From: Sphingomonas sp. PAMC 26605
Lineage (GTDB): Bacteria > Pseudomonadota > Alphaproteobacteria > Sphingomonadales > Sphingomonadaceae
Direction of reading: 5' to 3'
NCBI RefSeq assembly: GCF_000241485.1
Contig: NZ_JH584241.1
Coordinates: 3,154,210 to 3,218,209, forward strand
DNA length: 64,000 nt
In this document: one piece after another, positions 14,776 to 50,999 of the stretch
Position numbering within the stretch: the stretch's first letter is position 1
Layout: the number at the start of each line of letters is the position of its first letter
Program-made: the position numbers and the translations under genes
Notes under the pieces: model-generated
Database searches by the model: none
Seen by the model: the letters and a program-made list of their open reading frames with translations, nothing else
What the model was told of the DNA's origin: nothing

Positions 14776-17355
14776 ATGTCGGACAATCGCAATCTCCAAA
14801 ACGATCTGACGGAGTGCGACCGCGAGCCGATCACGCGGCTCGATCAGATACAAGATTTCGCATTTCTGGTCGCGATGACGAACGACTGGACGATCGTCCG
14901 CGTTTCACAAAACGTGCAATCCTTCCTCCAGGTCGCGCCGGCCCAATTGCTGGGCTCGCGCTTCGACGTGTGGATCAGCAAGGCGGCGCTGCACGCGATA
15001 CGGACGCGTCTGGCGACGCTCGCATCGAGCGGAAGCGAGCGTCTGTTCGATCTCGATCTCGTCGAAGGCGTACCTCCGCTCGATCTCGCCATTCATTTTC
15101 AGAACGATCTGCTGATCATCGAAGGCGAGTTCTCGCAAAAGGCTGGCGGTTTCGACGTCGCGCCGATGACCCGGGCGATGGTGGCACGCCTCGCCAAGGC
15201 GCCGAGTATCGAGCGGCTCCACACCGATGCCGCGCGTCAGGTGCTCGCGGTCACCGGCTTCGACCGGGTGATGATCTATCGCTTCGACGAACGCGGCGAT
15301 GGCGAGGTCATCGCCGAATCGACCCGTGCGGGGGTCGAGAGCTTTCTCGGGCTGCATTATCCGGCGACCGACATCCCGCAACAAGCGCGTGCACTCTATC
15401 TGCTCAACCCCTTCCGCATCATCGCCGACGTGGCCGCCCCGCCGGTCGCGTTGCTTCCCCCGATCGATGCGGTGACGCCGCCGCTCGATCTGACGATGGC
15501 GATCAGCCGCTCGGTGTCGCCGGTACACCTCGAATATCTCGTCAACATGGATGTCGCTGCGTCGCTGTCGATCTCGATCGTCGTCGATGGTCAACTCTGG
15601 GGGCTCATCGCTTGCCACGCCGCCGCGCCGCGCCTGCCGAGCTTTGCAGTCCGGACCGGGGTCGAGCTGTTCGGCGCGATGTATTCGCTGAAGCTCGAGA
15701 GCCGGCTGCGCCGCCGCAACGATGAGGATGAGCAGAAAGGGCGCGGGCTTGCCGACCGCCTGATCACCATGATCGCGGGCGACGAGTCGCTGATGCACAA
15801 TGCGATGTGGCTGCAGGACATGACGCGCGACATCATCGATTGCGACGGCATCGCGATCTATCGCGGCGGAACCGCCTATCTCCACGGTTCGACCCCGCCG
15901 GAGCAGCAGGTCGCGATGCTGGCATTTCATATGAACGCGGCATCACCGAGCCGGGTATTCGTCACCGACTGCCTCGCCGCGATCCACCCGCCGTGCGCGA
16001 CCACTGCGGAGCGCGCGGCCGGGATGATGTCGATCCCGATTTCGCGCATACCCCGCGATTATATCATGCTGTTTCGCCGCGAGCGGCTCGAGCGGATCCG
16101 CTGGGGCGGCAACCCCACGAAAGAGGCGAACGTCGACGCCGGACCGCGCATCTCGCCGCGCAAGAGCTTCGCGGCGTTCGTGCAGGAAATCCGCGGACGC
16201 GCGATCGGCTTCTCGGAGCGCGAAGTGCGCATGGGGGAAGCGATCCGCCAGGCGCTGATCGAGGTGATTCTGCGCTATTCGGACGAAGCCGCCGCCGAGC
16301 GGCGCCGCGCGGCCGAGCGACAGGAATTGCTCATCGCCGAGCTCAACCACCGCGTGCGCAATATCCTCGCGCTGATCCGCAGCCTGATCACCAAGACCGG
16401 AGAGGCGACTCCCGCCGTCGCCAGCTATGTCGAGGCGTTGAGCGGACGCGTGCAGGCGCTTGCGCGCGCGCATGACCGCATCACGCGGCAGGAATGGGGT
16501 CCCGCGCCGCTCGCGGGCGTGTTCGAGGACGAAGTCGCCGCGCATCAGGGGACGCGCGAGCGGCTGCGCTTGATCGGCCCGCAGGTGCAGCTCCAGCCGC
16601 GCGCGATCTCGACGATGGCGCTCGTCGTCCACGAACTCGTCACCAATTCGTGCAAATATGGCGCGCTCTCGACGGCCGGGCGGATCGAGGTGACGACGCG
16701 CGTGGTCGAGGGCGAAGGCGTCTATCTTGAGTGGAAGGAGGTTGGCGGCCCGGCGGTGACGGCACCGACGCGACGCGGCTTTGGCTCGACGATCCTCGAA
16801 CGCACCGTGCCGTTCGATCTGCAGGGAACCGCCGACCTCCATTATCGTCTTGCCGGGCTTGAAGCCGAATTCTTCATCCCCCAGCATAACGTCTATCTGC
16901 CGTCCGAGATTTTCGCGCCGGAGCCGAGCCTGGAACCGCGGTCGGCGCCGATCCACGGTGCTGCTCCTGTCGCTGACAGCGACCAGCCGCTCCGGGGGGC
17001 GCTCGTGCTGCTGCTAGAGGACAATATGCTGATCGCGCTCGAAGCCGAGGACATGCTCCGCGCGCTTGGCGCGAAAGACGTGCTCGTCGCCGCGACACTG
17101 AGCGACGCCGAGCATTTGATCGCGTCGCATACGTTCCAGTTCGCGATGCTCGATATCAATGTCGGGGGCGGCACCAGCTTCGAACTCGCGACCAAGCTCA
17201 CCAGCCGGGGGACCCCGTTCATCTTCGCATCGGGCTATGGCGAGGGGCTCGCGCTCGAGCGGCGCGAGGGGAGCGAGATCGTCCTCCAGAAGCCGTATGA
17301 GCGCCGACATCTGGAGCGTGCGATCGAGCAGGTGCTGCATCCCGCCGGCGTTTGA
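14776..17355 (+). CDS. Bacteriophytochrome HWE histidine kinase with C-terminal receiver domain (BphP1)
   Basis: An 859-residue red/far-red photoreceptor kinase. Order: PAS (about 10-115), GAF (about 130-300), PHY (about 310-495), HWE kinase dimerisation domain with phospho-acceptor His525 (ELNHRVRN), ATPase domain (HELVTNSCKYG, WKE), and receiver domain with Asp793 (LDINVG). Biliverdin-site features kept are Cys14, DIP, SVSPVH with His251, and CH with His281; the PHY tongue PRKSF is present. The normally invariant EPIHIPGxIQPHG after the Cys is diverged here to EPITRLDQIQDF. The start has only a weak upstream purine stretch. No phosphotransfer partner is adjacent. Confidence 0.92.
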   Translation: MSDNRNLQNDLTECDREPITRLDQIQDFAFLVAMTNDWTIVRVSQNVQSFLQVAPAQLLGSRFDVWISKAALHAIRTRLATLASSGSERLFDLDLVEGVPPLDLAIHFQNDLLIIEGEFSQKAGGFDVAPMTRAMVARLAKAPSIERLHTDAARQVLAVTGFDRVMIYRFDERGDGEVIAESTRAGVESFLGLHYPATDIPQQARALYLLNPFRIIADVAAPPVALLPPIDAVTPPLDLTMAISRSVSPVHLEYLVNMDVAASLSISIVVDGQLWGLIACHAAAPRLPSFAVRTGVELFGAMYSLKLESRLRRRNDEDEQKGRGLADRLITMIAGDESLMHNAMWLQDMTRDIIDCDGIAIYRGGTAYLHGSTPPEQQVAMLAFHMNAASPSRVFVTDCLAAIHPPCATTAERAAGMMSIPISRIPRDYIMLFRRERLERIRWGGNPTKEANVDAGPRISPRKSFAAFVQEIRGRAIGFSEREVRMGEAIRQALIEVILRYSDEAAAERRRAAERQELLIAELNHRVRNILALIRSLITKTGEATPAVASYVEALSGRVQALARAHDRITRQEWGPAPLAGVFEDEVAAHQGTRERLRLIGPQVQLQPRAISTMALVVHELVTNSCKYGALSTAGRIEVTTRVVEGEGVYLEWKEVGGPAVTAPTRRGFGSTILERTVPFDLQGTADLHYRLAGLEAEFFIPQHNVYLPSEIFAPEPSLEPRSAPIHGAAPVADSDQPLRGALVLLLEDNMLIALEAEDMLRALGAKDVLVAATLSDAEHLIASHTFQFAMLDINVGGGTSFELATKLTSRGTPFIFASGYGEGLALERREGSEIVLQKPYERRHLERAIEQVLHPAGV

Positions 17356-17429: not shown

Positions 17430-18326
17430 ATGGCGATGACGATCCACCGTACCGCAACCGCCGCTTTGCTCCGCCACTGTGCTGTCGTGCTGGTGTCGCT
17501 CGCCGCGATCCCGAGCGGTGCGACCGCGCAGGAGCCGGCGCAAGGCGATCCGGCCCAAGGCACCGGCCCGCTTCCCGCCAATGTCGCGCCCGCCCCGACC
17601 CCGATCTGCACCGATCGTCCGACCAAGGCGAGCGTCGCCTGCACCGTTCCCGCCGGGGCGTTCCAGCTCGAGACCGACCTGATCGACTGGACGCGGCAGA
17701 CGCTCGACGGCGTCCGGACCGATACCATCCTATATACCAATCCAACGCTGAAATATGGCGTCGGGCGGCACACCGATGTCGAGGTCAACATCGCGCCGTA
17801 TGAAACGGTGCGGATGCGGAACGCCGATGGCAGCGTGACGACCGATGGCGGCGTCGGCGATCTGTTCGTGCGGGTGAAGCAGAAGCTGACGATCGACCGT
17901 TCGAAGACGCAGGTTTCGATCATCGGCTCGGTCAAGGCGCCGACCGCGGGATCGGTGGTCGGCAACGGCGCGTGGGAGGGCAGCCTCGCGCTCCCGGTCA
18001 ACATCCCGCTCCCCGCCAAATTCACGCTGACCACCAGCCCCGAACTCGACATCTCGGCAAACCAGGGCGATGTCGACGGCTACCATCTGGAACTGGTCAA
18101 TCTCATCAATCTGTCGCATCCGCTCGGCAAGGATGCGACGGTCTATGCTGAATTCTGGACCAAGGAGAGTTTCGAGCCGCGTCAGAACGGTCAGCAATAT
18201 TCCGCCGATCTCGCCGCTTCGTACCAGTTGACCAAGACGCTCCAGCTCGACGCCGCCGCCTATTTCGGGCTCAATCGCGAAACGCCGGGGCTGCAGCTCT
18301 ACACCGGCGTATCGGCGCGCTTCTAG
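17430..18326 (+). CDS. Outer-membrane transporter-like protein (phenol MetA-pathway family)
   Basis: A 298-residue exported protein with a signal peptide (residues about 3-33, ending SGATAQ) and a beta-rich body ending in Phe (TGVSARF), consistent with an outer-membrane barrel. The body (TPICTDRPTKASVACTVPAG, then YTNPTLKYGVGRHTDVEVN) matches the family annotated as putative MetA-pathway of phenol degradation or transporter. The name is historical; actual cargo is unknown. Start is either ATG at 17430 or 17436. It follows BphP1 by 74 bases on the same strand and meets the convergent hybrid kinase gene with a 4-base overlap. Confidence 0.75.
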   Translation: MAMTIHRTATAALLRHCAVVLVSLAAIPSGATAQEPAQGDPAQGTGPLPANVAPAPTPICTDRPTKASVACTVPAGAFQLETDLIDWTRQTLDGVRTDTILYTNPTLKYGVGRHTDVEVNIAPYETVRMRNADGSVTTDGGVGDLFVRVKQKLTIDRSKTQVSIIGSVKAPTAGSVVGNGAWEGSLALPVNIPLPAKFTLTTSPELDISANQGDVDGYHLELVNLINLSHPLGKDATVYAEFWTKESFEPRQNGQQYSADLAASYQLTKTLQLDAAAYFGLNRETPGLQLYTGVSARF

Positions 18327-20770
18327 CGCGCGAGCGTCGCCAGGCTGCGGAACAGCTCGTCGCGGCGAAACGGCTTGGTCAGTCGCGGCAGATCGGGTGC
18401 GATCCCTTCGCTTTCGGCATAGCCGGAGATGACGAGAACCGGGAGGCGCGGGTGCTGGCGGTGTACCGCACGGGCGAGATCGGATCCCGTCATGCCCGGC
18501 ATCAGATGGTCGGTCACGACCAGATCGGGCACCAGCCCCGCGCGCACCAGCGCGAGCGCCGCCTCGGCCGACTCGGCCTCGACCACGTCATAGCCGATCT
18601 CCGCGAGCATCGCGGCGGTGCTCAGCCGTACGAACTCTTCGTCATCGACCAGCAAGGCCGTCCCGCGCGCTGCCTCGAGCAGCTCCGGCGTCGCGGCCGG
18701 GAGCGGCGCATGCAGGGCGCGACCCTGCGGCAACCACAGCTCGACCTGCGTGCCCGCCCCCGGCTCGCTGCGCAGCCGCAGCGCACCGCCGAGCTGCGAC
18801 GCAAGGCCATGGACCATCGAGAGCCCGAGCCCGGTCCCCCTCCCCACCCCCTTGGTCGAAAAGAACGGCTCGATCGCGCGCGCCATCGTCTCGGCGCTCA
18901 TTCCGGTTCCGGTATCGCTGACCGACAGGCAGATATAGCCGCCCGCGGCGAGCTCGGGATCCTGCTCGATCGTGGCGGGGGCTGCGTGGATGCGCAACGT
19001 TCCGCCATCGGGCATCGCGTCGCGCGCATTCACGGCCAGGTTGAGCAGCGCCATCTCGAGCTGGTTGGGATCGGCGTTCGCGGTCGGGAGATCCGCCGGC
19101 GTCTCGATCACGACGCGGATCTGCGGGCCGATCGTGCTGGCGACAAGGTCGCCCATTCCGCGCACCAAGGCCGCGACATCGACCGCGACCGCCTGGAGCG
19201 GTTGCCGACGCGCGAAGGCGAGCAGGCGCTGGACCAGCGTCCGCGCGCGTTCCGCCGACAGTGCCGCGCCTTCGATCAGCCGCTGCTCGCGCTCGCCGCC
19301 GATCCCCTTGCGCTGCAAGAGATCGAGCGCGCCGACGATCGGCGTCAGCAGATTGTTGAAATCGTGCGCCACGCCGCCGGTCAGCTGGCCCATCGCCTCC
19401 ATCTTCTGCGCCTGTCGCAACGCTTCCTGCGCCGCGGTAAGGTCGGCTTGCGCGCGCAGCCGCGCGGTGACGTCGCGCGCATGGTGGAACGCGCCGATGA
19501 TCCGCCCCTCGCCGTCGCGCAGCGGTGAATATTGAATTTCCCAACTCGGCGCGTCGATCTCCGGATTGCCGAATTCGGCCTCGACCGTAAAGCGCTCGCC
19601 CTGGAGAGCGCGCGTCATCAGCGCCTTCATCGCGTCACGCTGCTCGGGAACGAACAGCTCATGGAACACGTCTCCCAGCCGGGTGAAGAAGCCGTTCGCG
19701 CGGAAGAAGGCGTCGTTATGCGCCTGGTTGAAGGCGATCAGCCGATAGTCGGTATCGAACGCGCAGATCGCGGTGCTGTCCGATTGGATGATGTTCTCAT
19801 GCAGCAGCAGCGCCTGGGTGCGCTCGACCACGGTGGCCTCGAGCGTCGCGTTGAGCTTGGCCAGCGCATCACGATCGGCACGGCGTTCGGTCACGTCCTG
19901 GACGACGCCCAGCAGCCGTGCGGGCGCGCCGTCCGCGTCATATTCGATTTCGGCGCGCCGCTCGATCCAGCGGATCTGCTGCGTGTCGGCGCGGCGCACG
20001 CGATATTCGATCTGCAAGGCCGCAAGCCGCGCCGCGCGATGGTCGGCGGGAGAGCCGACGGCGGCATCCTCGGGCAGGATCAGCGCCTCGATCCGCGACG
20101 CATCGACCGTGCCTTCGTTCGGAAGTCCGAACAGATGGTAGAATTCCGCCGAGGCGCTCACCGTGTTGGTTGCGAGATCGACCGCGAACACGCCGATATG
20201 CCCCGCTTCCTCGGCGCGGCGCAGGCTTTGCTCGGCTTGCGCCAGCGCGAGATCGACCTGACGCTTCGATTCGGCCTGGACGACGTTGGCGGTGGTCTCG
20301 TTGGTTAGGCACAATACCCCGCTAATCGCGCCGGCATCGTCGAACACGGGGGAGAAAGAGAAGGTCCACCACGTCTGTTCTGGGTCGCCCCAGCGCGCCA
20401 TCGGCACCGGATGATCGACGACGCGATACGCGGTGCCGCCCAACGCGCCGAGAAACATCGGGGCGACCGCGGGATAGGCGTCGGCCCAGAGGGTGGGAAA
20501 ATGCGCGCCCATCGCACCCGCGATCCGCGGGCCGAGGATCGGGGCGTAAGCGTCGTTGAAGAAGAAGGTCTGGCTATCGCCCCATACGAGGTAGACCGAC
20601 TCGGGCGAGGACAGCAGAAAATCCAGCATCGTCGTCAACGCGACCGGCCATTCCGCACGCGGACCGAGCGGGTGCGATGCCCAATCGACCTGCGCCAACA
20701 ACGCCGCAGCCGAAGCCGGTGCGGAGCCGGCGGGGTCGATCGACGAGCTCTCTTCCCTCACGCGTACCAA
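18323..20770 (-). CDS. PAS-domain hybrid sensor histidine kinase/response regulator
   Basis: This 815-residue cytoplasmic hybrid kinase has no membrane segment. Several PAS domains cover about residues 1-430 (PAS folds at about 40-160, 190-300 and 315-430). A HisKA domain follows with the His in GGVAHDFNNLL, then an ATPase domain (LLNLAVNARDAMPDGG, SDTGTGM) and a C-terminal receiver (LLVDDEEFVRLS, acceptor Asp in VVTDHLMPGM). The start is a TTG at 20770, supported by GGAGG a few bases upstream. Ligand and partner unknown. It lies downstream of the Mg-ATPase gene on the same strand, 124 bases away. Confidence 0.88.
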   Translation of the reverse strand: MVRVREESSSIDPAGSAPASAAALLAQVDWASHPLGPRAEWPVALTTMLDFLLSSPESVYLVWGDSQTFFFNDAYAPILGPRIAGAMGAHFPTLWADAYPAVAPMFLGALGGTAYRVVDHPVPMARWGDPEQTWWTFSFSPVFDDAGAISGVLCLTNETTANVVQAESKRQVDLALAQAEQSLRRAEEAGHIGVFAVDLATNTVSASAEFYHLFGLPNEGTVDASRIEALILPEDAAVGSPADHRAARLAALQIEYRVRRADTQQIRWIERRAEIEYDADGAPARLLGVVQDVTERRADRDALAKLNATLEATVVERTQALLLHENIIQSDSTAICAFDTDYRLIAFNQAHNDAFFRANGFFTRLGDVFHELFVPEQRDAMKALMTRALQGERFTVEAEFGNPEIDAPSWEIQYSPLRDGEGRIIGAFHHARDVTARLRAQADLTAAQEALRQAQKMEAMGQLTGGVAHDFNNLLTPIVGALDLLQRKGIGGEREQRLIEGAALSAERARTLVQRLLAFARRQPLQAVAVDVAALVRGMGDLVASTIGPQIRVVIETPADLPTANADPNQLEMALLNLAVNARDAMPDGGTLRIHAAPATIEQDPELAAGGYICLSVSDTGTGMSAETMARAIEPFFSTKGVGRGTGLGLSMVHGLASQLGGALRLRSEPGAGTQVELWLPQGRALHAPLPAATPELLEAARGTALLVDDEEFVRLSTAAMLAEIGYDVVEAESAEAALALVRAGLVPDLVVTDHLMPGMTGSDLARAVHRQHPRLPVLVISGYAESEGIAPDLPRLTKPFRRDELFRSLATLAR

Positions 20771-20894: not shown

Positions 20895-23510
20895 TCACCC
20901 CGCCTGCCGCGCAACCGCATCGCGCACAGCGAGCGGCTTGAGCATTTCGGCCACCGCGAGATAGCCCAGGACGAGCGCGGCAAGCGCGCCGCACTCGGCG
21001 GCGCTGGGCGGCGCAAAGCCGAGCGCGGCGGCCCCGACGACAAAGGGCAGCATCACCGCCAGCCCGAGCCCAGCGAGCGCCGTCGCGACAAGCGCAGCCT
21101 GTGGTCGACTGCGCCACGCGGCACGGCGGGTGCGGATGACGAATACGACGAGGATCTGGGTCGCCATCGATTCGAGGAACCATGCCGCGCGAAAGGTCGG
21201 CACATCGACACGATAGACCCATAGCAACAGCGCGAAGGTCGCCACGTCGAAGATCGACGAAAGCGGCCCCATGATCGCGGTGAAGCGCAGCAATCCGGGC
21301 ATGTCCCAGCCGTGCGGCCGCGCGAGATCGACATCGTCGGCGCGGTCGAACGGGATGCCGATCTGCGAACAGTCGTAGATCAGATTGTTGAGCAGGATTT
21401 GCACCGCGGTGAGCGGAAGGAACGGCAGCACGAGCGAGGCGAGCGCCATCGTCAGCATGTTGCCGAAATTCGAGCTCGTCCCCATGCGGATGTATTTGAG
21501 GATATTGGCGTAGGTCCGCCGCCCCTCGGCGACGCCATCGGCGAGCACGTCGAGATCGGGCGCGAGCAGGATCATGTCGGCCGCCTCGCGCGCGACATCG
21601 GTTGCGCCATCGACCGACAGGCCGACATCGGCAGCCCGGATCGCCGGGGCATCGTTGATCCCGTCACCGAGGAAGCCGACGGTATGCCCTGCGGCCTTCA
21701 GCGCGCGGACGATCCGAGTCTTCTGGTCGGGGCTGACGCGGGCGAAGACGTCGACGCTCGCCACCCGCGCGGCAAGCGCGGTATCGGACAGATCGGCGAT
21801 CTCCTCTCCGGTCAGGACCCCAGCGAACGGAACCGCCAGCGCCGCGACGAGATGCTCGACCACGGCGGCCGCATCGCCCGAGATGACCTTGATGCGGATC
21901 CTCGTCGCCTCGAGCCGCGCGATCGCCGCGGCGGCGCTCGCCTTGGGCGGATCGACGAACAGGCAATAGCCGAGGAACACCAGGCCCGCCTCGTCGCGCG
22001 CGGCGATCCGCTCCTGGCCGGGTGCCGGCTTCCATGCCACGCCCAACGCGCGCAGCCCCTGCGTCGCCTGATCGCGCTGCATCGCCGCCAGCCGCGTGCG
22101 CAGCACCGCATCGAGCGGCACCAGCGCCCCGCTGGGATCCTGCGCGTGCGTGCACAGCGCGAGCAGCGTCTCGGGCGCGCCCTTGACGATCTCGATCCGC
22201 GCGCCCGCCTGCTCGGCCAGCACCGAGACGCGGCGGCGCTCGAAATCGAACGGGCATTCGTCGAGCTTGCGCCAACCGGCGATCCGCTCGGGCGTCGCAT
22301 GGCGCAGCAAGGCGGCGTCGAGCGGGCTCTTCAACCCGGTCTCGAACGCTGCATTGACCGCGGCGAGTTCGACCACGCGCTCGTCGTCCGCCCCATCGAT
22401 CCCGGGATGGCCGACCAGCGTGATCGAGGCTTCGGTCAGCGTTCCGGTCTTGTCGGTGCATAGAATGTCCATCTGGCCGAGATCGTGGATTGCCGACAGC
22501 CGCTTCACGATCACCTTGCGCGCCGCCATGCGCTGCGCGCCGCGCGCGAGCGAGACCGTCACGATCATCGGCAGCAATTCCGGCGTCAGGCCAACCGCGA
22601 GCGCGATCGCGAACAGGAACGACTGGAGCGGCGGACGCCCGAGCGCGAGGTGCGCGACCAGCACGAACAGCACGAGGAAGAGCGTCAGCCGCGCGATCAG
22701 CAGGCCGAGCTGGTGGATGCCGCGTTCGAACGCGGTCGGCGGTTCGGCGCCGCCAAGCGACGCCGCGATCGCGCCGAACCGCGTCCGCGCGCCCGTCGCG
22801 ACGACGAGCATCGTCGCGGTGCCGGCGATCAGCGAGGTCCCGTGGAACAGCGCGTTGCTGGCGTCGCCCGGCGCGGTCGCGTCGGGAACGAGCGCGACCT
22901 GCTTTTCGACCGGATAGGGCTCGCCGGTGAGCAACGCCTCGTCGACCTGCGCGGCGTTGACCGCGAGCACCACGCCGTCCGCCGGAACCAGATCGCCCGC
23001 GCTGAGCAGCACCACGTCGCCCGCAACGATCTCGCTCGCCGGCCGCTCCGCCGCGACCCCGTCGCGCAGCACGTTGGCGTGGAGCGCGATCGAGCGTTTC
23101 AGCGCGGCGGCGGTCGCTTCGGCACGGTGTTCCTGCACCATGTCGAGCGCGGTCGAGACGATCACGACCGTGACGATGATCGCAAAGCTCGCCGCATCTC
23201 CCGTCGCGCCGGCAACCGCCGCGGCGACCAGCAGGATCGCGATCAACGGGTTGGCGAGCTTGCGAAGCAGGCCGCGCAGAACGCTGCTCCGCGCGGCGGT
23301 GCCCAGTTCGTTGCGGCCATCGCGCGCGAGCCGGCTGGCGGCGTCGATGCTGCCGAGCCCGGCGCGGCTGCTCCCGAGGCGCGCGAGCACCGCCTCGGGC
23401 GGATCGCGCCAGAAGGGCGGCGCTGCGACGACGGAGGCGATCCCTGGCTTCAGGCCCATTCGCTCGAGTCCTTGCGGTCCGGCCGGCGCGATCGTGCGGT
23501 GCGCGGACAT
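20895..23510 (-). CDS. mgtA: Magnesium-translocating P-type ATPase
   Basis: An 871-residue P3B-type ATPase. Key elements are the actuator-domain loop LLTGEPYPV, the phosphorylation site DKTGTLT with Asp353, the hinge [32 protein letters not shown], and ten predicted helices. The C-terminal membrane part ([18 protein letters not shown]) matches MgtA/MgtB. It imports Mg2+ at the inner membrane. A later ATG (18 codons in) is an alternative start. In this window it is divergent from phosphoketolase, with a palindrome in the shared 174-bp region. No mgtL-like leader is visible. Confidence 0.92.
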
Positions 23511-23546
23511 TCCCGGGGCTATGCGGCGGATCCGGGCGAAGCGCGC

Positions 23547-23562
23547 TACGGGTTAGCCCGTA
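23547..23562. promoter_or_regulatory. 16-bp palindrome TACGGG-N4-CCCGTA between mgtA and xfp
   Basis: Perfect 6-bp arms around TTAG. It lies 37 bases upstream of the mgtA start and about 120 bases upstream of the phosphoketolase start, so it could serve both genes. Arm length and spacing resemble the two-half-site operators of NarL/FixJ-type regulators, and a FixJ-type regulator is encoded at 33255. A related site lies at 32209-32224. Binding is inference. Confidence 0.4.
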
Positions 23563-23684
23563 TAGCGACGCCGGCCGCAAACCGCGACGAGCGCTGGGCC
23601 GGTCGCCGGATCACGCGCGCTTCCGCGCGCCGCCGCCGCCGCACCGGCAATCGGCCCTCCCCCGCGGCCGGCCCGGAGACGCGC

Positions 23685-26045
23685 ATGTCCGATCCCCTTT
23701 CCCTCGAGCACGCCGCAGCGCTCGACGCCTATTGGCGCGCGGCGAACTATCTTTCGGTCGGGCAGATCTACCTGCGCGACAATCCGCTGCTCGAGCGGCC
23801 GCTCACCCGCGCCGACATCAAGCCGCGGCTGCTCGGCCATTGGGGTACGACCCCCGGGCTAAACTTCGTCTACGCCCATCTCAACCGGCTGATCGTCGCG
23901 AACGATCTCGACATGATCTATATCATCGGGCCAGGGCATGGCGGGCCGGGGCTCGTCGCCAACGCCTATCTCGAAGGCTCGTACACCGAACATTATCCCG
24001 CGATCGAGCGCAGCCGCAGCGGGATGGAGCGGCTGTTCCGGCAATTTTCCTGGCCGGGTGGCATCCCGAGCCATGTCTCGCCCGAATGCCCGGGCTCGAT
24101 CCACGAAGGCGGCGAACTCGGCTATTCGCTCGCGCACGCCTATGGTGCGGCGTTCGACAATCCCGATCTGATCGTCGCCTGCGTCGTCGGCGACGGCGAG
24201 GCCGAGACCGGCCCGCTCGCGGCAAGCTGGCACAGCAACAAGTTCCTCAATCCCGCGCGCGATGGCGCGGTCCTGCCGATCCTCCATCTCAACGGCTTCA
24301 AGATCGCCAATCCGACGATCCTCGCGCGGATCGGTCGCGACGAGCTGACCGATCTGCTGCGCGGCTATGGCCACGAGCCGTATTTCGTCGAGGGCGACGA
24401 TCCCGCCTTACTCCACCAGCAAATGGCGAGTACGCTCGACACGGTACTGCAGACCATCGAGGCGATTCAGGCGGAGGCCCGTGCCGCGCCCACTTCGCCG
24501 CCAAAGCGCCCGCGCTGGCCGATGATCGTGCTCAAGACGCCGAAGGGCTGGACGGGCCCGAAGCGCGTCGATGGCCTGCCGGTCGAAGGCACGTGGCGGG
24601 CGCATCAGGTGCCGATCGCCGATTTCGACAAGCCCGAGCATCTCGAACAGCTCGACGCGTGGCTGCGCAGCTACCACCCGGCCGAGCTGTTCGACGCGAC
24701 CGGCAAGGTCCGTGCTGAAATCGCGGACCTCGCCCCGACCGGGCATCGCCGGATGAGCTCGAACCCGCATGCCAATGGCGGTGCGCTGCTCGAACCGCTG
24801 TCGCTCCCCGACTTTCGCGATTTTGCGGTCGGGCTCGACATGCCCGGCGCGGTCGAGGCCGAAGCGACGCGCGTGCTCGGCCACTATCTGCGCGAAGTGA
24901 TGCGGCTCAACCTGGCGACCAAGAACTTCCGCATGTTCGGTCCCGACGAGACCGCCTCGAACCGGCTCGACTCGGTCTATGAGGTATCGGGCAAGGCGTG
25001 GATGGCCGACATCGAACCGGTCGATATCAACCTAAGCCCCGACGGGCGCGTGATGGAAGTGCTGAGCGAGCATCTCTGTCAGGGCTGGCTCGAGGGCTAT
25101 CTGCTGACCGGGCGGCACGGCTTCTTCTCGTGTTACGAGGCTTTCGCGCACATCGTCGATTCGATGCTCAACCAGCACGCCAAATGGCTCAAGGTCAGCC
25201 GCAAGATCGCCTGGCGCCGCCCGATCGCCTCGCTCAACTATCTGCTCACCTCGCATGTCTGGCGTCAGGACCATAATGGCCTGTCGCATCAAGACCCGGG
25301 CTTCATCGATCAGGTCGCCAACAAGACCTCGGACATCGCGCGCATCTATCTCCCGCCCGACGCGAACTGTCTCCTGTCGGTGGCCGATCACTGCCTGCGC
25401 AGCCACGACTACGTCAATCTGATCGTCGCGGGGAAACAGCCCGAATGGCAATGGCTCGCGATCGACGAGGCGGTGCGGCATTGCACCGCCGGCGCCGGGA
25501 TCTGGCATTGGGCGGGAGTCGACGACGCGAATCCCGATGTCGTGATGGCCTGCGCCGGCGACGTCCCTACGCTCGAGGCGCTTGCCGCGGTGATGTTGCT
25601 ACGCGAACAGGTGCCCGACATCCGCATCCGTTTCGTCAACGTCGTCGATCTGATGGTGCTCGAACCGAGCAGCGAACATCCGCACGGGCTCGACGATCAC
25701 GCCTTCGATGCGCTGTTCACCACCGATACGCCGGTGATCTTCGCCTTTCACGGCTTTCCCGCAACGATCCATACGCTGACCTATCGCCGCACCAACCATC
25801 CCAACATCCACGTCCGCGGCTTCAAGCAGGAGGGCACGACGACGACGCCGTTCGACATGGTCGTGCTCAACGATCTCGATCGCTATCGTCTGGCCCTCGA
25901 CGCGATCGAGCGGATCCCGCGCCTCCACGCCGAGGTGCCCGCGGCGCGCGATCGCTATTGGGCCGCAATCGAGCGGCACAAGCTCCACATCGCCGAGCAG
26001 GGCGAGGATCTGCCCGAGATTCGCACCTGGCGCTGGTCGGCATGA
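23685..26045 (+). CDS. xfp: Xylulose-5-phosphate/fructose-6-phosphate phosphoketolase
   Basis: A 786-residue thiamine-diphosphate enzyme that splits xylulose-5-P or fructose-6-P with phosphate to acetyl-P plus glyceraldehyde-3-P or erythrose-4-P. The N-terminal domain shows GPGHGGPG and the phosphoketolase signature [16 protein letters not shown]. The diphosphate/Mg site follows ([13 protein letters not shown]), and later come SWRQDHNG-like [18 protein letters not shown] and the C-terminal [14 protein letters not shown]. Length is typical. The ATG at 23685 follows GGAG. Its stop overlaps the acetate kinase start by 4 bases, so acetyl-P passes to ATP-forming acetate kinase. Confidence 0.95.
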
Positions 26046-27232
26046 GCGCGTCGCGCGTGCCTGCGGGCACGACGATCCTGACCTTCAACGGCGGATCGTC
26101 CTCGCTCAAGTTCGGGCTGTTCGACGTTGCCGGCGCATTGGCGGAACCGCTGCTGACGGGCGAAATCGAAACCGCAGGCGGCGGCGCGGTCCGGCTGCAC
26201 GCGGCCGATCCCGCCGGTCGCGTGCGTGTCGACCATTCGCTGGGCACCGCGGCGCCGGATAGCTGGACGCGCCACGTCGTCGATCTGCTCGATCGCACGG
26301 CGCTACCGGCCCCCGCTGTCATCGGGCATCGCCTCGTCCATGGCGGCCCCGAACTGCTCGCGCCGGTCCGGATCGACGCCGCTGTGCTCGGACAGATCCA
26401 GGCGGCGGCGCGTTTCGCCCCGCTGCATATCCCCACCGCGCTCGCGACGATCCGCGCGACGCAGCAGCATTTCCCGAACTGTCCGCAGGTCGCCTGCTTC
26501 GATACCGGCTTCCACGCGACCATGCCCGCGGTCGCGAGCACGCTGCCGCTCCCCGCGGCGCTGCGCGCCCAGGGTCTAAGGCGCTACGGCTTCCACGGAC
26601 TGTCGTGCGAGTCGATCGTGCGGCAGCTCGGACACGACGTACCGGAACGGCTGATCATCGCGCATCTCGGCAACGGTGCAAGCGTCACCGCGGTGCGCGC
26701 GGGCCGCTCGGTCGATACCAGCATGGGGCTGACCCCGACCGGCGGGTTGATCATGGGGCGCCGCACGGGCGATCTTGACCCCGGCGTCCTGCTTCATCTG
26801 CTGCGGAGCTGCGGCTATACCCCCGAAACGCTGGCGACGCTGGTCGATCGCGAAAGCGGGTTGCTCGGCGTGTCGGGAATCGACAGCGATCTGCGTCGGC
26901 TCAACGCCGCCGCGGCGACCCAGCCCGCCGCCGCGCTGGCGATCGCGATGTTCTGCCACGCGCTGGTCAAGACGATCGCCGCGATGGCGGGGTCGCTCGG
27001 CGGGGTCGACATGATCGTCTTTACCGGCGGGATCGGCGAACACGATCCGGGCGTCAGGGCGACCGCCTGCGCCGCGCTCGGCTGGATGGGCGTCGCGCTC
27101 GATCCGACGCGGAATAGGGCGGGCGCCGCCACGATCAGTGGCGACGCGTCACGTGTCGCGGTACGCGTGCTGCCCGCACGCGAAGATCGGGAGATCGCGC
27201 TCCACAGCGCCGCTGTGGTGGGGGCCGGATAG
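26042..27232 (+). CDS. ackA: Acetate kinase
   Basis: A 396-residue ASKHA-fold kinase: [16 protein letters not shown] (phosphate loop), GHRLVHGG, the central [17 protein letters not shown], the signature [20 protein letters not shown], and TGGIGEHD. It converts acetyl-P and ADP to acetate and ATP. It is fused transcriptionally to phosphoketolase (ATGA overlap), the standard phosphoketolase-acetate arrangement used for extra ATP and redox balance. Convergent with the oxidoreductase gene 12 bases away. Confidence 0.95.
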
Positions 27233-47787: not shown

Positions 47788-50367
47788 TCACGCCAGGATC
47801 GCGGGCCCCAGAATGTCCTCCATCGCGCGCGCGACGTTTTCGATCGTGTAGGGCTTTTGCACGACCGTCCTGTCGCGGTGGCTCTCGGGCAATTTGGCCT
47901 GTTCGCCATAGCCGGTGGCGAACAGGAAGGGGATGCCGAGCTCGAGCAGCCGGTCCGCGATCGCGAAGCTGTTGCGGTCGCCGAGATTTATGTCGAGCAT
48001 CGCGACCGCCGGCCGGCTGTGCGCGATCGCGTCGAGCGCGCCATCGACGGTCGCCGCGGTGGTGACGTTTTCGGCGCCCAGCCGCGTAACGATGTCCTCG
48101 GCGTCGAGCGCGATGATCAGGCTGTCCTCGACCAGCAGCACGTCGTGCCCGTCGAGCATCCGTTCCGGCGCGGCGGCGGGAAGGCCTGCCACGGGCCGCG
48201 CGCTGCGGATCGGTGGCGTGGCGCGGATCGCAGCCGGCGCTTCGGTGACGTGCCGCGCAGGGATGCGGAAGCGCGCCTCGACCCCGTCAGGGCGATAGTC
48301 GACGTCCGCCGTCCCACCGAGATCGTACGGCACCGAGCGATGGATGATCGTCGTGCCGAACCCCTTACGAGTCGGCAAAGCGACGGTCGGGCCGCCGGTC
48401 TCGCGCCAGAAGAACAACAGGTCCTCGGCCGTGTTGCGTTCCCAGCTGATCGCGACGTGCCCGTCGGGCACCGACAGGCTGCCATATTTGGTCGAGTTGG
48501 TGACGAGCTCGTGCAGCACCAGCGCCATCGTCGAATAGGCCTGCGGGTTGAGCAGCACCGGCGCGCCCTCCGACACGATCTTGTCATCGTCGGCGACGAA
48601 GGCTGCGGCCTCGGCATCGATCAGCGCCTGCATCGGCGCAGGCCCCCAATGGTCGTCGGTGATCTGGTTGTGCGCGCGCGCGAGCGCGTGAATCCGGCCA
48701 TCGACGACCTTGACGAAATCCTGGACGACGTCCTCGGCCGGTTGCGACTGGCGGATCAGCCCGCGGATCACGCCGAGCACGTTGCGGACGCGGTGATTGA
48801 GCTCGGCGATCAGCAGCTCCTGCCGGGCATTGGCGTGTTGCCGCTCGGCCGAGGCTTCGTCCGCCAGCCGCAACACGACTTCGATCAGCGTCGCTCGGAG
48901 TGTCTCGGCGACACGGATTTCGGAGGCGGTGAAGGGCTGCGAGCGCCCCTGCACCAACTCCTTCCACTCGGCAAAACTCTCGCGTGGCGACAGGCGGGGG
49001 CCGTTCGCCCCATATTCCACGGGCTTGTGCGGATCGCCCGCCCAGCGCACCGAGCGAACGAGCTCGGAACGGAACAACACGACGTAATCGCGCGGCGCGC
49101 GCGAGATCGGGATCGCCAGCAGCCCTGCCGACTCGGCGGCGAACTCTTCGGCGCCGGGCAGGATCGACGCGATCCGGTCGGTCGCGAACACCTTGCCCGC
49201 GGTCGTGCCGTTGAGCGCGCGAACGATCCGACGGAAGGCATCGGCCGAAGGAGTTACGCCCGAAAAGGCATGGTTGCCGCCGATCCACACGCCGACGCCA
49301 TCGGCCTTGATCGCGCGCGTCAGGATCTCGCCGAGCCAGTCGGGATCCTTGAGCAGCGTATCGTCGGAGGCGATCGCGCCAAGCAACTGGTCGGCGATAT
49401 CGCGCGCGCCGCGCTCGAACTCGACGGTCGCCTGGCGTTCGCGGCTCTCGAGCCGCATCGCGAACATCTGCGCGAACAGTTCGCTGACCGAACGCCGCTC
49501 GAAGGTTGGGCAGCGGGCCGTGTAATGGTGACAGGCGAACAGCCCCCACAGCTTGCCATCGACCAGGATCGAGATCGACAGCGACGCCTGCACGCCCATG
49601 TTCTTGAGATATTCGATATGGATCGGCGAGACCGAGCGGAGCACCGACAGCGACAGATCGAGCGGGCGCCCGCCCGCGTCGCGCGCGGGAACGATCGGCA
49701 CGGCCTGCTGGTCGACGTCGGCGATAAGGCGCAACAGGTTGCGCTTGTAGAGCAGACGTGCCTGGACCGGGATATCGCTGGCGGGATAGCGCAGCCCGAG
49801 AAATTTGCCGATGCCGGGCTTCACCGCCTCGGCGACGACCTCGCCCGAATCGTCGGCGGCGAAGCGATAGACCATCACCCGATCGAAGCCGATCAGCGCG
49901 CGGACCTGCCGTGCGCCTTCGCGGTAGAAGCTCTCCATGTCGGCGCATTGATCGAGCCGCGTGATCATCGAGCGGACCAGGCCGCTCGCATCGCCATATT
50001 CGCCCGACGCCGGTTCGGCCTCGATCACGACCTGGTCGCCCGAGACGTGGAGTGCGATATCGAACGCCGCGCCGCCAGGGAGCAAGACGATGTCGAACAT
50101 GCGCTCGACCGCATCGGCGCCGCGCAACATCGCGGCACGATTGCGCAGATCGTGGATCACCGCGGACGGCAAGATTTCTGCCAGCGGCAGCCCGAGCAAA
50201 TCCTCCGGGCTATGCCCGATGAATTGGGCGACGTTCGCCGATACCCGCGCGACGAGCCAGTCGGCGGTCAACGCCAACAGGAACCCGATCGGCTGGATCG
50301 CGCCCAGGATATGAATCGGTTCGCGATCGCAATTCGTCAGATCGACCGTTCCGAAATCGTCAGCCAA
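47788..50367 (-). CDS. bphP: Bacteriophytochrome HWE histidine kinase with C-terminal receiver domain (BphP2)
   Basis: An 859-residue photoreceptor kinase with the same domain order and length as BphP1. Cys13 begins a near-canonical chromophore motif (CDREPIHILGAIQPIG). GAF features include VMVYRF, PASDIP, SVSPIHIEYL and ACHHY; the PHY tongue has PRESF. The HWE kinase has His525 (ELNHRVRN), HELVTNSTKYG and WRE, and the receiver Asp is about residue 792 (LDINLG). The start is a TTG at 50367 preceded by AAGGA at 7-8 bases. It overlaps the heme oxygenase stop by 8 bases, so bphO and bphP form an operon. Confidence 0.95.
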   Translation of the reverse strand: MADDFGTVDLTNCDREPIHILGAIQPIGFLLALTADWLVARVSANVAQFIGHSPEDLLGLPLAEILPSAVIHDLRNRAAMLRGADAVERMFDIVLLPGGAAFDIALHVSGDQVVIEAEPASGEYGDASGLVRSMITRLDQCADMESFYREGARQVRALIGFDRVMVYRFAADDSGEVVAEAVKPGIGKFLGLRYPASDIPVQARLLYKRNLLRLIADVDQQAVPIVPARDAGGRPLDLSLSVLRSVSPIHIEYLKNMGVQASLSISILVDGKLWGLFACHHYTARCPTFERRSVSELFAQMFAMRLESRERQATVEFERGARDIADQLLGAIASDDTLLKDPDWLGEILTRAIKADGVGVWIGGNHAFSGVTPSADAFRRIVRALNGTTAGKVFATDRIASILPGAEEFAAESAGLLAIPISRAPRDYVVLFRSELVRSVRWAGDPHKPVEYGANGPRLSPRESFAEWKELVQGRSQPFTASEIRVAETLRATLIEVVLRLADEASAERQHANARQELLIAELNHRVRNVLGVIRGLIRQSQPAEDVVQDFVKVVDGRIHALARAHNQITDDHWGPAPMQALIDAEAAAFVADDDKIVSEGAPVLLNPQAYSTMALVLHELVTNSTKYGSLSVPDGHVAISWERNTAEDLLFFWRETGGPTVALPTRKGFGTTIIHRSVPYDLGGTADVDYRPDGVEARFRIPARHVTEAPAAIRATPPIRSARPVAGLPAAAPERMLDGHDVLLVEDSLIIALDAEDIVTRLGAENVTTAATVDGALDAIAHSRPAVAMLDINLGDRNSFAIADRLLELGIPFLFATGYGEQAKLPESHRDRTVVQKPYTIENVARAMEDILGPAILA

Positions 50368-50917
50368 AGGTTCCGGTCCTTACCCATCGGTGTCCGCTGA
50401 TTTCGAACAACGCAAACACGTTACGCGCCGCTTGCACCGCGACGGACCGCTTTAGCGCAGTATCGAGACGCGCGTCGAGCATCTGGAGCAAGTTGCGCCA
50501 CGCGGCCGAATCGCCGCCCCCGAGAAAACGCGTCGGGAAATCGGACGGAACCGATCGCTTGAGCATCGTCCCGCCGAGGCGCGACCCTTCGAGCACGTAG
50601 AGACCGCCGAGCAGCGCCGCCTCGCTTTCGAAACGGATCGCCCCCGCGGGATCAGGTACGGCGAGCCCGAGCGTCGCGAGATCGGCGCGCAGCAGATCGG
50701 CGCGCTGGCGTGTTTCCCAGTCGGGCGCGATGTCGGCGATACCCGCATCGGCCAGCGCGCGCTCGACCGGGATATGCGCCGCCGCCTGTGCCCCGAGAAA
50801 CGCCCCATAGTCCTGCCGGTCATCGAGCCGCACGTGCGAGAACAGGCGATCGACCCGCTCGTGCTGGTCGTGCGTCGCGGCTCGCAATTCCGCGCGCGCG
50901 GTGGTTTGGTCGGTCAT
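50360..50917 (-). CDS. bphO: Biliverdin-producing heme oxygenase
   Basis: A 185-residue alpha-helical heme oxygenase of the BphO type: ATHDQHERVDRLFS with the proximal His, then LGGLYVLEGSRLGGTML, the distal-helix Gly-rich motif. It opens heme to biliverdin, CO and Fe2+, and biliverdin is the bilin used by bacteriophytochromes. The ATG at 50917 was chosen from the family N-terminus; its ribosome site is weak. Immediately upstream of and overlapping bphP, so the pair is co-expressed; it may also supply BphP1. Confidence 0.93.
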   Translation of the reverse strand: MTDQTTARAELRAATHDQHERVDRLFSHVRLDDRQDYGAFLGAQAAAHIPVERALADAGIADIAPDWETRQRADLLRADLATLGLAVPDPAGAIRFESEAALLGGLYVLEGSRLGGTMLKRSVPSDFPTRFLGGGDSAAWRNLLQMLDARLDTALKRSVAVQAARNVFALFEISGHRWVRTGTFG

Positions 50918-50999
50918 CGCGGCAGTGTACTGGATATCGCGACAAATGTAACCGAGCTCGCTCCGCACCGGTTGCGCTCGTTTTGGCGTGCGATCGAGG

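Follow-up and report, generated by a model that had tools for sequence, protein, structure and literature searches.

The bphP1 locus and its product

The stretch of DNA analysed here, called the window, covers 64,000 nucleotides of the Sphingomonas sp. PAMC 26605 genome and carries two bacteriophytochrome genes, bphP1 and bphP2. The features are listed below with their window coordinates, strand and basis; "clade" refers to nine proteins that share an altered segment beside the chromophore Cys, and "others" to 164 listed relatives.

14776..17355, + strand: bphP1, PAS-GAF-PHY-HWE histidine kinase-receiver protein of 859 aa (ORF translation, Pfam)
14815..14817, + strand: Cys14, expected biliverdin attachment site (9/9 clade, 164/164 others)
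14824..14862, + strand: altered segment EPITRLDQIQDFA, residues 17-29, with T20-R21-L22-D23 on the knot strand (alignment; AlphaFold strand 20-25)
15370..15378, + strand: DIP motif of the GAF pocket, D199-I200-P201 (clade-invariant)
16156..16179, + strand: tongue PRKSFAAF, with Phe468 in place of the relatives' Trp (Phe in 9/9 clade, Trp in 163/164 others)
16348..16350, + strand: His525, expected phospho-accepting His of the HWE kinase, in LNHRVRN (His in 9/9 and 164/164)
17152..17154, + strand: Asp793, expected phospho-acceptor of the receiver (Asp in 9/9 clade)
47788..50367, - strand: bphP2, second bacteriophytochrome of the same architecture, reading EPIHILGAIQPIG (ORF scan, Pfam)
50360..50968, - strand: heme oxygenase gene (bphO) at the bphP2 start (PF01126, 27.4 bits, cut-off 23)

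In BphP1 the PAS_2, GAF and PHY domains followed each other in this order, all three above their Pfam cut-offs. The HWE_HK domain scored 73.4 bits; the receiver matched Response_reg with 24.5 bits, below the cut-off of 30.2, and contained the expected Asp. With HWE_HK, His525 and a receiver carrying Asp793 the protein has the composition of an HWE-kinase hybrid. Cys14 precedes the PAS domain, as is expected of the N-terminal Cys of bacteriophytochromes, and the original prediction was right that Cys14, DIP, His251 and His281 are kept, as all were present in the translation.

The closest solved structure by sequence was 6g1y (342 bits), which is Agp2 (AtBphP2) of Agrobacterium fabrum. The two proteins are homologous over PAS-GAF-PHY, and Agp2, like BphP1, contains an HWE kinase and a receiver according to excerpts of a published study (PMC11021371). 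Agp2 differs from BphP1 in its canonical EPIHIPGYIQPHG, in Trp at 468 and Gln at PASDIP-3, and in being a bathy phytochrome. BphP2 shares the architecture of BphP1 and is 46% identical to it, but it has EPIHILGAIQPIG, Trp at 468 and an adjoining heme oxygenase gene, and it falls on another branch of the tree. The bphP2-heme oxygenase pair (47788-50968, - strand) was also adjacent in genome G433, and the two genes lay within 0.7 kb of each other in G349. Our literature search found no paper on HWE bacteriophytochromes of Sphingomonas and no spectrum of BphP1.

The TRLD segment and its clade

The original prediction held that a segment beside the Cys, invariant in bacteriophytochromes, was altered in BphP1. 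The alteration was confirmed: residues 14-29 are C-DR-EPITRLDQIQDFA and align without a gap to C-DR-EPIHIPGYIQPHG of Agp2, residues 17-29 standing opposite EPIHIPGYIQPHG, and the EPIHIPGxIQPHG pattern was absent. The invariance did not hold for this branch. In the 164 near relatives, which were picked by similarity to the window protein and are no unbiased census, the strict pattern was found in none and a relaxed form in one; the usual reading was EPIHxLGxIQPFG. Excluded from this set were two copies of the window gene (L002 and L003), seven identical sequences and ten rows below 600 bits, five of which (L087, L088, L090, L091, L092) contain IQPHG. Since the strict pattern was absent from 164/164 near relatives it does not define the branch and, judged by these alignments, it was the wrong yardstick. 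What the relatives do keep is His20 (158/164), Gly23 (158/164) and Gly29 (164/164), or 156/162, 156/162 and 162/162 after clustering at 98% identity. His20 was missing in six and Gly23 in six of the 164, and none lacked both, neither in the full set nor among the 162 clustered rows. Both were changed in all nine clade members.

Surveys of family, genus and a broad range of genomes retrieved at least nine proteins with EPITRL[D/E]xIQxF, hereafter TRLD proteins. The survey of close homologs proposed earlier thus showed that the change is not private to BphP1. The carriers were the window protein, L093, L094, L004, L095, L096, L097, L112 from Rhizobium sp. Leaf306 and L113 from the A. vitis plasmid pAvCG78b. 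T20, R21, L22 and D/E23 were common to 9/9, and Ala29 was found in 5/9. The family survey comprised 298 genomes, 269 with some match, many of them to the kinase only, and its loci were 30 returned with the search and 60 further ones fetched, among the matches listed. Of 201 genomes in the genus survey 200 gave some match, and 19 loci besides the window's own were used, among the matches listed. The broad scan covered 84,980 species' genomes, and the best 80 of 587 confirmed places were used.

As a DNA pattern including the Cys, the motif was detected in 6/295 genus genomes and in 1/385 class-sampled genomes, the latter being the window's own. These counts speak against the motif being common among normal bacteriophytochromes, which had been named as an observation that would overturn the prediction. 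Proteins with 99% identity or more to the photosensory module of L113 were found in seven plasmid records, all from A. vitis or A. ampelinum. At two such A. vitis / A. ampelinum loci (L232 and L233) the plasmids carrying the TRLD phytochrome were classed as conjugative, and genes for methyl-accepting chemotaxis proteins lay nearby.

In a quick tree of 54 chosen rows, made without bootstrap and with residues up to 32 omitted, the nine TRLD proteins formed a single branch with 100% SH-aLRT support, and T20-R21-L22-D/E23 was combined with Phe468 in 9/9. The clade is thus marked outside the segment as well, by Phe468, three residues past the Phe of PRxSF (Trp in 163/164 others), and by Gly487 (Ala in 161/164 other listed relatives). 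Both Rhizobiaceae members branched among the sphingomonad ones, and these tree positions suggest that the gene may have been transferred between orders.

The clade proteins were 55-74% identical to window BphP1. Within positions 14-30, 13/17 residues were clade-invariant, compared to 42% for residues 10-499, and by mean majority fraction 20/473 windows of 17 residues scored at least as high (positions 14-30 itself counted). The stretch is among the most conserved ones of the protein, not the single most conserved. Comparison of the whole window gene with its 74% identical orthologue L093 gave a dN of 0.185 and a dS of 0.715 (dN/dS about 0.26); other clade pairs had a dS of at least 0.88, too near saturation for use. 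Because of the clade-wide conservation and this ratio, the altered segment is, as far as sequence comparison can tell, maintained under purifying selection and not decaying. Motif decay as a general explanation was accordingly rejected on the conservation across the clade. Faster evolution of bphP1 than of its neighbourhood was also considered and dropped, the 74% identity lying within the range of about 58-93% of the neighbouring ORFs against the syntenic L192 stretch.

An AraC-family gene was located directly upstream and in the same direction in 6/9 members (L193, L194, L195, L197, L112, L113). Remnants were seen in L196, and the gene was absent beside window bphP1 and in syntenic L192; the neighbour is common and not universal in the clade. 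The AraC genes directly upstream of TRLD phytochromes span 7555-8415 in L194, 7292-8260 in L195 and 3094-3954 in L232, and in strain S4 a gap of 22 bases separates the AraC gene from the TRLD gene. Among the best 80 of 587 loci of the broad scan, some of which were clipped by contig ends, a full-length AraC copy was found near two, both of them TRLD loci, and two further loci gave weak helix-turn-helix matches only. The search for a full copy in the genomes G000, G433 and G395 returned only partial helix-turn-helix matches. The upstream position in 6/9 members suggests that the AraC gene could be a dedicated output partner of TRLD phytochromes, and it provides a concrete candidate for their output. 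A bacteriophytochrome-AraC gene pair was not reported in the titles and abstract starts of the literature matches listed.

Chromophore pocket, heme oxygenase and knot strand

Pocket residues were compared at the positions that we take to form the biliverdin site, labelled by DrBphP numbering. Cys24, E27, I29, M174, Y176, V186, F198, D207, I208 and P209 were invariant in 9/9 clade proteins, as were Y216, R222, R254, S257, H260, Y263, H290, W451 and PRxSF. In window numbering the clade-wide residues include Cys14, DIP, H251, H281, Y168, R214, R245, Y254 and PRxSF. Positions 193, 195, 250 and 468 do not vary within the clade and are unlike DrBphP; position 193 is Leu in 9/9 clade proteins and in 160/164 others, position 195 is Tyr in 9/9 and in 146/164, and position 250 is Val in 9/9 and Ile in 150/164 others. 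Position 282 is Ala in 6/9 clade proteins and His in 156/164 others. The A29 and A282 of the window protein also occur in the A. vitis member, but not throughout the clade. Within the clade D259, in the NMGV stretch, was unique to the window copy (Glu in L112, Gly in the other seven), and M386 was a second private change at a well-conserved site.

The ORF at 50360-50968 passed the Pfam cut-off for heme oxygenase when scanned directly and matched Pa-HO (1sk7) with an E-value of 1.8e-11; its product is the likely biliverdin source. The whole-genome Pfam search for heme oxygenase had returned nothing (0/1), which calls for caution with absence claims, and NCBIfam assigned 0 families to this ORF. 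A biliverdin shortage in this genome was considered and rejected because the ORF passes the Pfam cut-off. With the window heme oxygenase as probe a match was obtained in 8/9 clade genomes (E-values from 1e-119 to 1.3e-5). In the ninth, G031, the ORF that immediately follows the TRLD gene matched PF01126 over its C-terminal half with 42 bits and a solved HemO with an E-value of 6.5e-4. G318 has an ORF related to the window heme oxygenase, 43% identical over 147 aa and without a Pfam match, about 1 kb upstream of the TRLD gene and in divergent orientation. The TRLD protein was the sole PHY-domain protein found in G031 and in G318. Since heme oxygenase relatives occur in 9/9 clade genomes, and beside the TRLD gene in these two, biliverdin is, by the pocket residues and these genes, the likely ligand of TRLD proteins.

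The AlphaFold2 model of BphP1 residues 1-508 had a mean pLDDT of 85.9, with residues 1-15 below 50, so the Cys was not placed. Strands were predicted at 20-25 and 245-247. The model was aligned with solved phytochromes (VIA-align, best Z 38.2, most rows aligned from residue 8-14 on), and the predicted fold of the photosensory module matches theirs. A control model of BphP2, built with the same 66 relatives aligned, gave the same mean pLDDT, residues 1-15 below 50 and strands at 19-24 and 244-246. As the N-terminal patterns of BphP1 and BphP2 were equal, the models do not distinguish an effect of TRLD.

The TRLD change is presumably not among the bilin contacts and lies on knot strand beta1'. 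By motif register R21, L22 and D23 of the window protein fall on R110, G111 and G112 of phyB. In excerpts of Oka et al. 2008 (PMC2494609) these residues correspond to I31, P32 and G33 of DrBphP, in or near knot strand beta1'. The earlier claim that the segment passes through the knot and packs on the bilin is partly wrong. In the same excerpts the phyB G112D mutant took up its chromophore normally, was normal in difference spectrum and dark reversion, and had a weak defect in signalling. PIF3 binding of G112D was affected only marginally, as stated in excerpts of Kikis et al. 2009 (PMC2621353). Since phyB G112D loads and converts normally, an Asp at position 23 is, by analogy with a plant protein that has another attachment site, compatible with bilin binding and photochemistry. 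The phyB G118R exchange cut chromophore incorporation (excerpts of PMC2494609); G118 aligned here with A29 of the window protein, Ala being milder than Arg, and Ala29 occurs in the A. vitis member too. A DrBphP hybrid remained prototypical in its behaviour when the tongue or the N-terminus was exchanged, and its enzymatic activity was seemingly unaffected, according to excerpts of Bohm et al. 2025 (PMC12362586). We infer that a pairing between knot strand and tongue, involving TRLD and F468, may be the mechanism by which the variant acts.

Avp1 and the probable function of BphP1

Avp1 of A. vitis has a normal Pr dark form that is converted to Pfr and to a bleached form, Pbl, according to excerpts of a 2011 Agp1 paper citing Rottwinkel 2010 (PMC3197147). 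The other A. vitis phytochrome is the bathy AvBphP2 from plasmid pETavi3496 (excerpts of PMC11021371), and in UniProt B9JR96, a bathy A. vitis module used in other work, the second residue is Pro (excerpts of PMC12582566). The chromosomal phytochrome of A. vitis CG78 contained an in-frame MPATQTVDLTNCDREPIHIPG; this protein and the plasmid TRLD protein were the two PHY-domain proteins found by search in CG78. On plasmid pAtS4c of S4 the TRLD protein is WP_012650515.1 (AVI_RS23760), annotated as HWE kinase. As the other, bathy phytochrome is thereby accounted for, Avp1 is very probably, by elimination and on these partial sources, the A. vitis member of the TRLD clade; the elimination spans two strains, with the PHY-domain proteins of CG78 and plasmid pAtS4c of S4, and assumes that B9JR96 is avi3496.

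The photosensory module of WP_012650515.1, most likely Avp1 (Agrobacterium vitis / Allorhizobium ampelinum S4), is 70% identical to that of BphP1 and shares T20-R21-L22 and A29 with it, D23 being found in the near-identical CG78 copy L113. Its gene is preceded by an AraC gene, which bphP1 lacks, and the plasmid that carries it is classed as conjugative; L113 reads NMGV (Gly 259) where the window protein reads NMDV.

We consider it probable, from the sequence comparisons and the analogy with Avp1, that BphP1 binds biliverdin, is photoactive and works as a hybrid histidine kinase, within the TRLD (Avp1-type) branch of HWE-kinase bacteriophytochromes. By its sequence BphP1 is a real, rare and conserved knot-strand variant of an otherwise ordinary HWE bacteriophytochrome. 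We infer its binding, Pr ground state, photoconversion and phosphate path as follows. Biliverdin made by the genome's heme oxygenase would attach to Cys14 and sit in the GAF pocket, most of which is kept at the sequence level. Light would isomerise the biliverdin and the PHY tongue would refold; autophosphorylation of the HWE kinase at His525 would then change, with Asp793 receiving the phosphate. TRLD and the Trp to Phe change at 468 probably tune the knot-tongue interface. The ground state would be Pr, and a bleached second photoproduct is possible as in Avp1, with perhaps a branched photochemistry in BphP1. The suggestion in the original prediction that biliverdin is bound in an unusual way receives some support, by analogy, from the two photoproducts, Pfr and bleached, described for Avp1 in the excerpts.

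A bathy phytochrome, with Pfr as the dark state of BphP1, would agree with bathy Agp2 being the closest solved relative by sequence, and also with the HWE kinase and the Arg at PRxSF-3 in 9/9, traits that are enriched in bathy proteins (excerpts of PMC12362586). It is rather unlikely nonetheless, given that PASDIP-3 is Leu and not Gln in 9/9, that PRxSF-8 is Val and not Gly by direct count in the BphP1 sequence, and that the dark form of Avp1 is reported as Pr (excerpts of PMC3197147). The original prediction had also proposed a light-insensitive kinase, in which the altered strand would uncouple or prevent bilin binding and another cue or constitutive signalling would take over. The odd segment, the missing AraC partner and the private substitutions of the window copy fit such a protein, but Cys14 and the majority of pocket positions do not vary among proteins of 55-74% identity, a heme oxygenase gene lies beside the TRLD gene where this encodes the sole PHY-domain protein found, and Avp1, a clade member by elimination, is photoactive (excerpts of PMC3197147). 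We regard this alternative as unlikely.

The clade could also be functional while the window copy, with BphP2 in the same genome, has recently been relaxed and is losing function. The lack of an adjacent AraC gene at bphP1 and in L192, the remnant in L196 and the private changes at conserved sites (D259, M386) would be in line with this. The reading frame is however open as in the orthologue, dN/dS over the whole gene is about 0.26, the 74% identity to the orthologue lies within the range of about 58-93% of the neighbouring ORFs, and the kinase and receiver residues are intact, which makes a relaxed paralogue quite improbable. For a ligand other than biliverdin, likewise raised in the original prediction, nothing speaks beyond the motif itself; against it stand the pocket conservation, the heme oxygenase gene beside the TRLD gene and in the window's genome, and the photoactivity given for Avp1 in the excerpts, and we consider it extremely improbable. 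Thus, with the pocket residues mostly conserved in 9/9 proteins, heme oxygenase relatives in 9/9 genomes and Avp1 photoactive as far as the excerpts state, neither the light-insensitive kinase nor the other ligand found support.

Under the preferred reading of BphP1 as a photoactive, biliverdin-binding kinase, what had been suspected to be a broken motif becomes a test case, a coordinated change of knot strand and tongue in nine natural proteins, one of them very probably with two photoproducts, and bears on the question whether it is the knot strand that makes phytochrome photochemistry branch. A wider and doubtful possibility is that TRLD proteins are a photoreceptor class of their own, their altered knot strand and F468 giving rise to a branched photocycle read out by AraC, in a module moving horizontally in sphingomonads and rhizobia. 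If so, Pr would yield both Pfr and a bleached form that is deprotonated.

The window's genome also has two genes for photosynthetic reaction centres (PF00124), at G000:C1:980540-982217, and the host is probably an aerobic anoxygenic phototroph. A strict link of the TRLD clade to photosynthesis was considered and dropped, reaction-centre genes being present in only 4/7 clade genomes searched, with the two Rhizobiaceae outside that search. Near bphP1, window 18323-20770 (- strand) encodes a multi-PAS hybrid histidine kinase with a C-terminal receiver, named by eye, which had no match in the syntenic L192 stretch. ORFs resembling phosphoketolase and acetate kinase, also named by eye, were located at 22485-27232 (+ strand), and their L192 matches were 89% and 79% identical.
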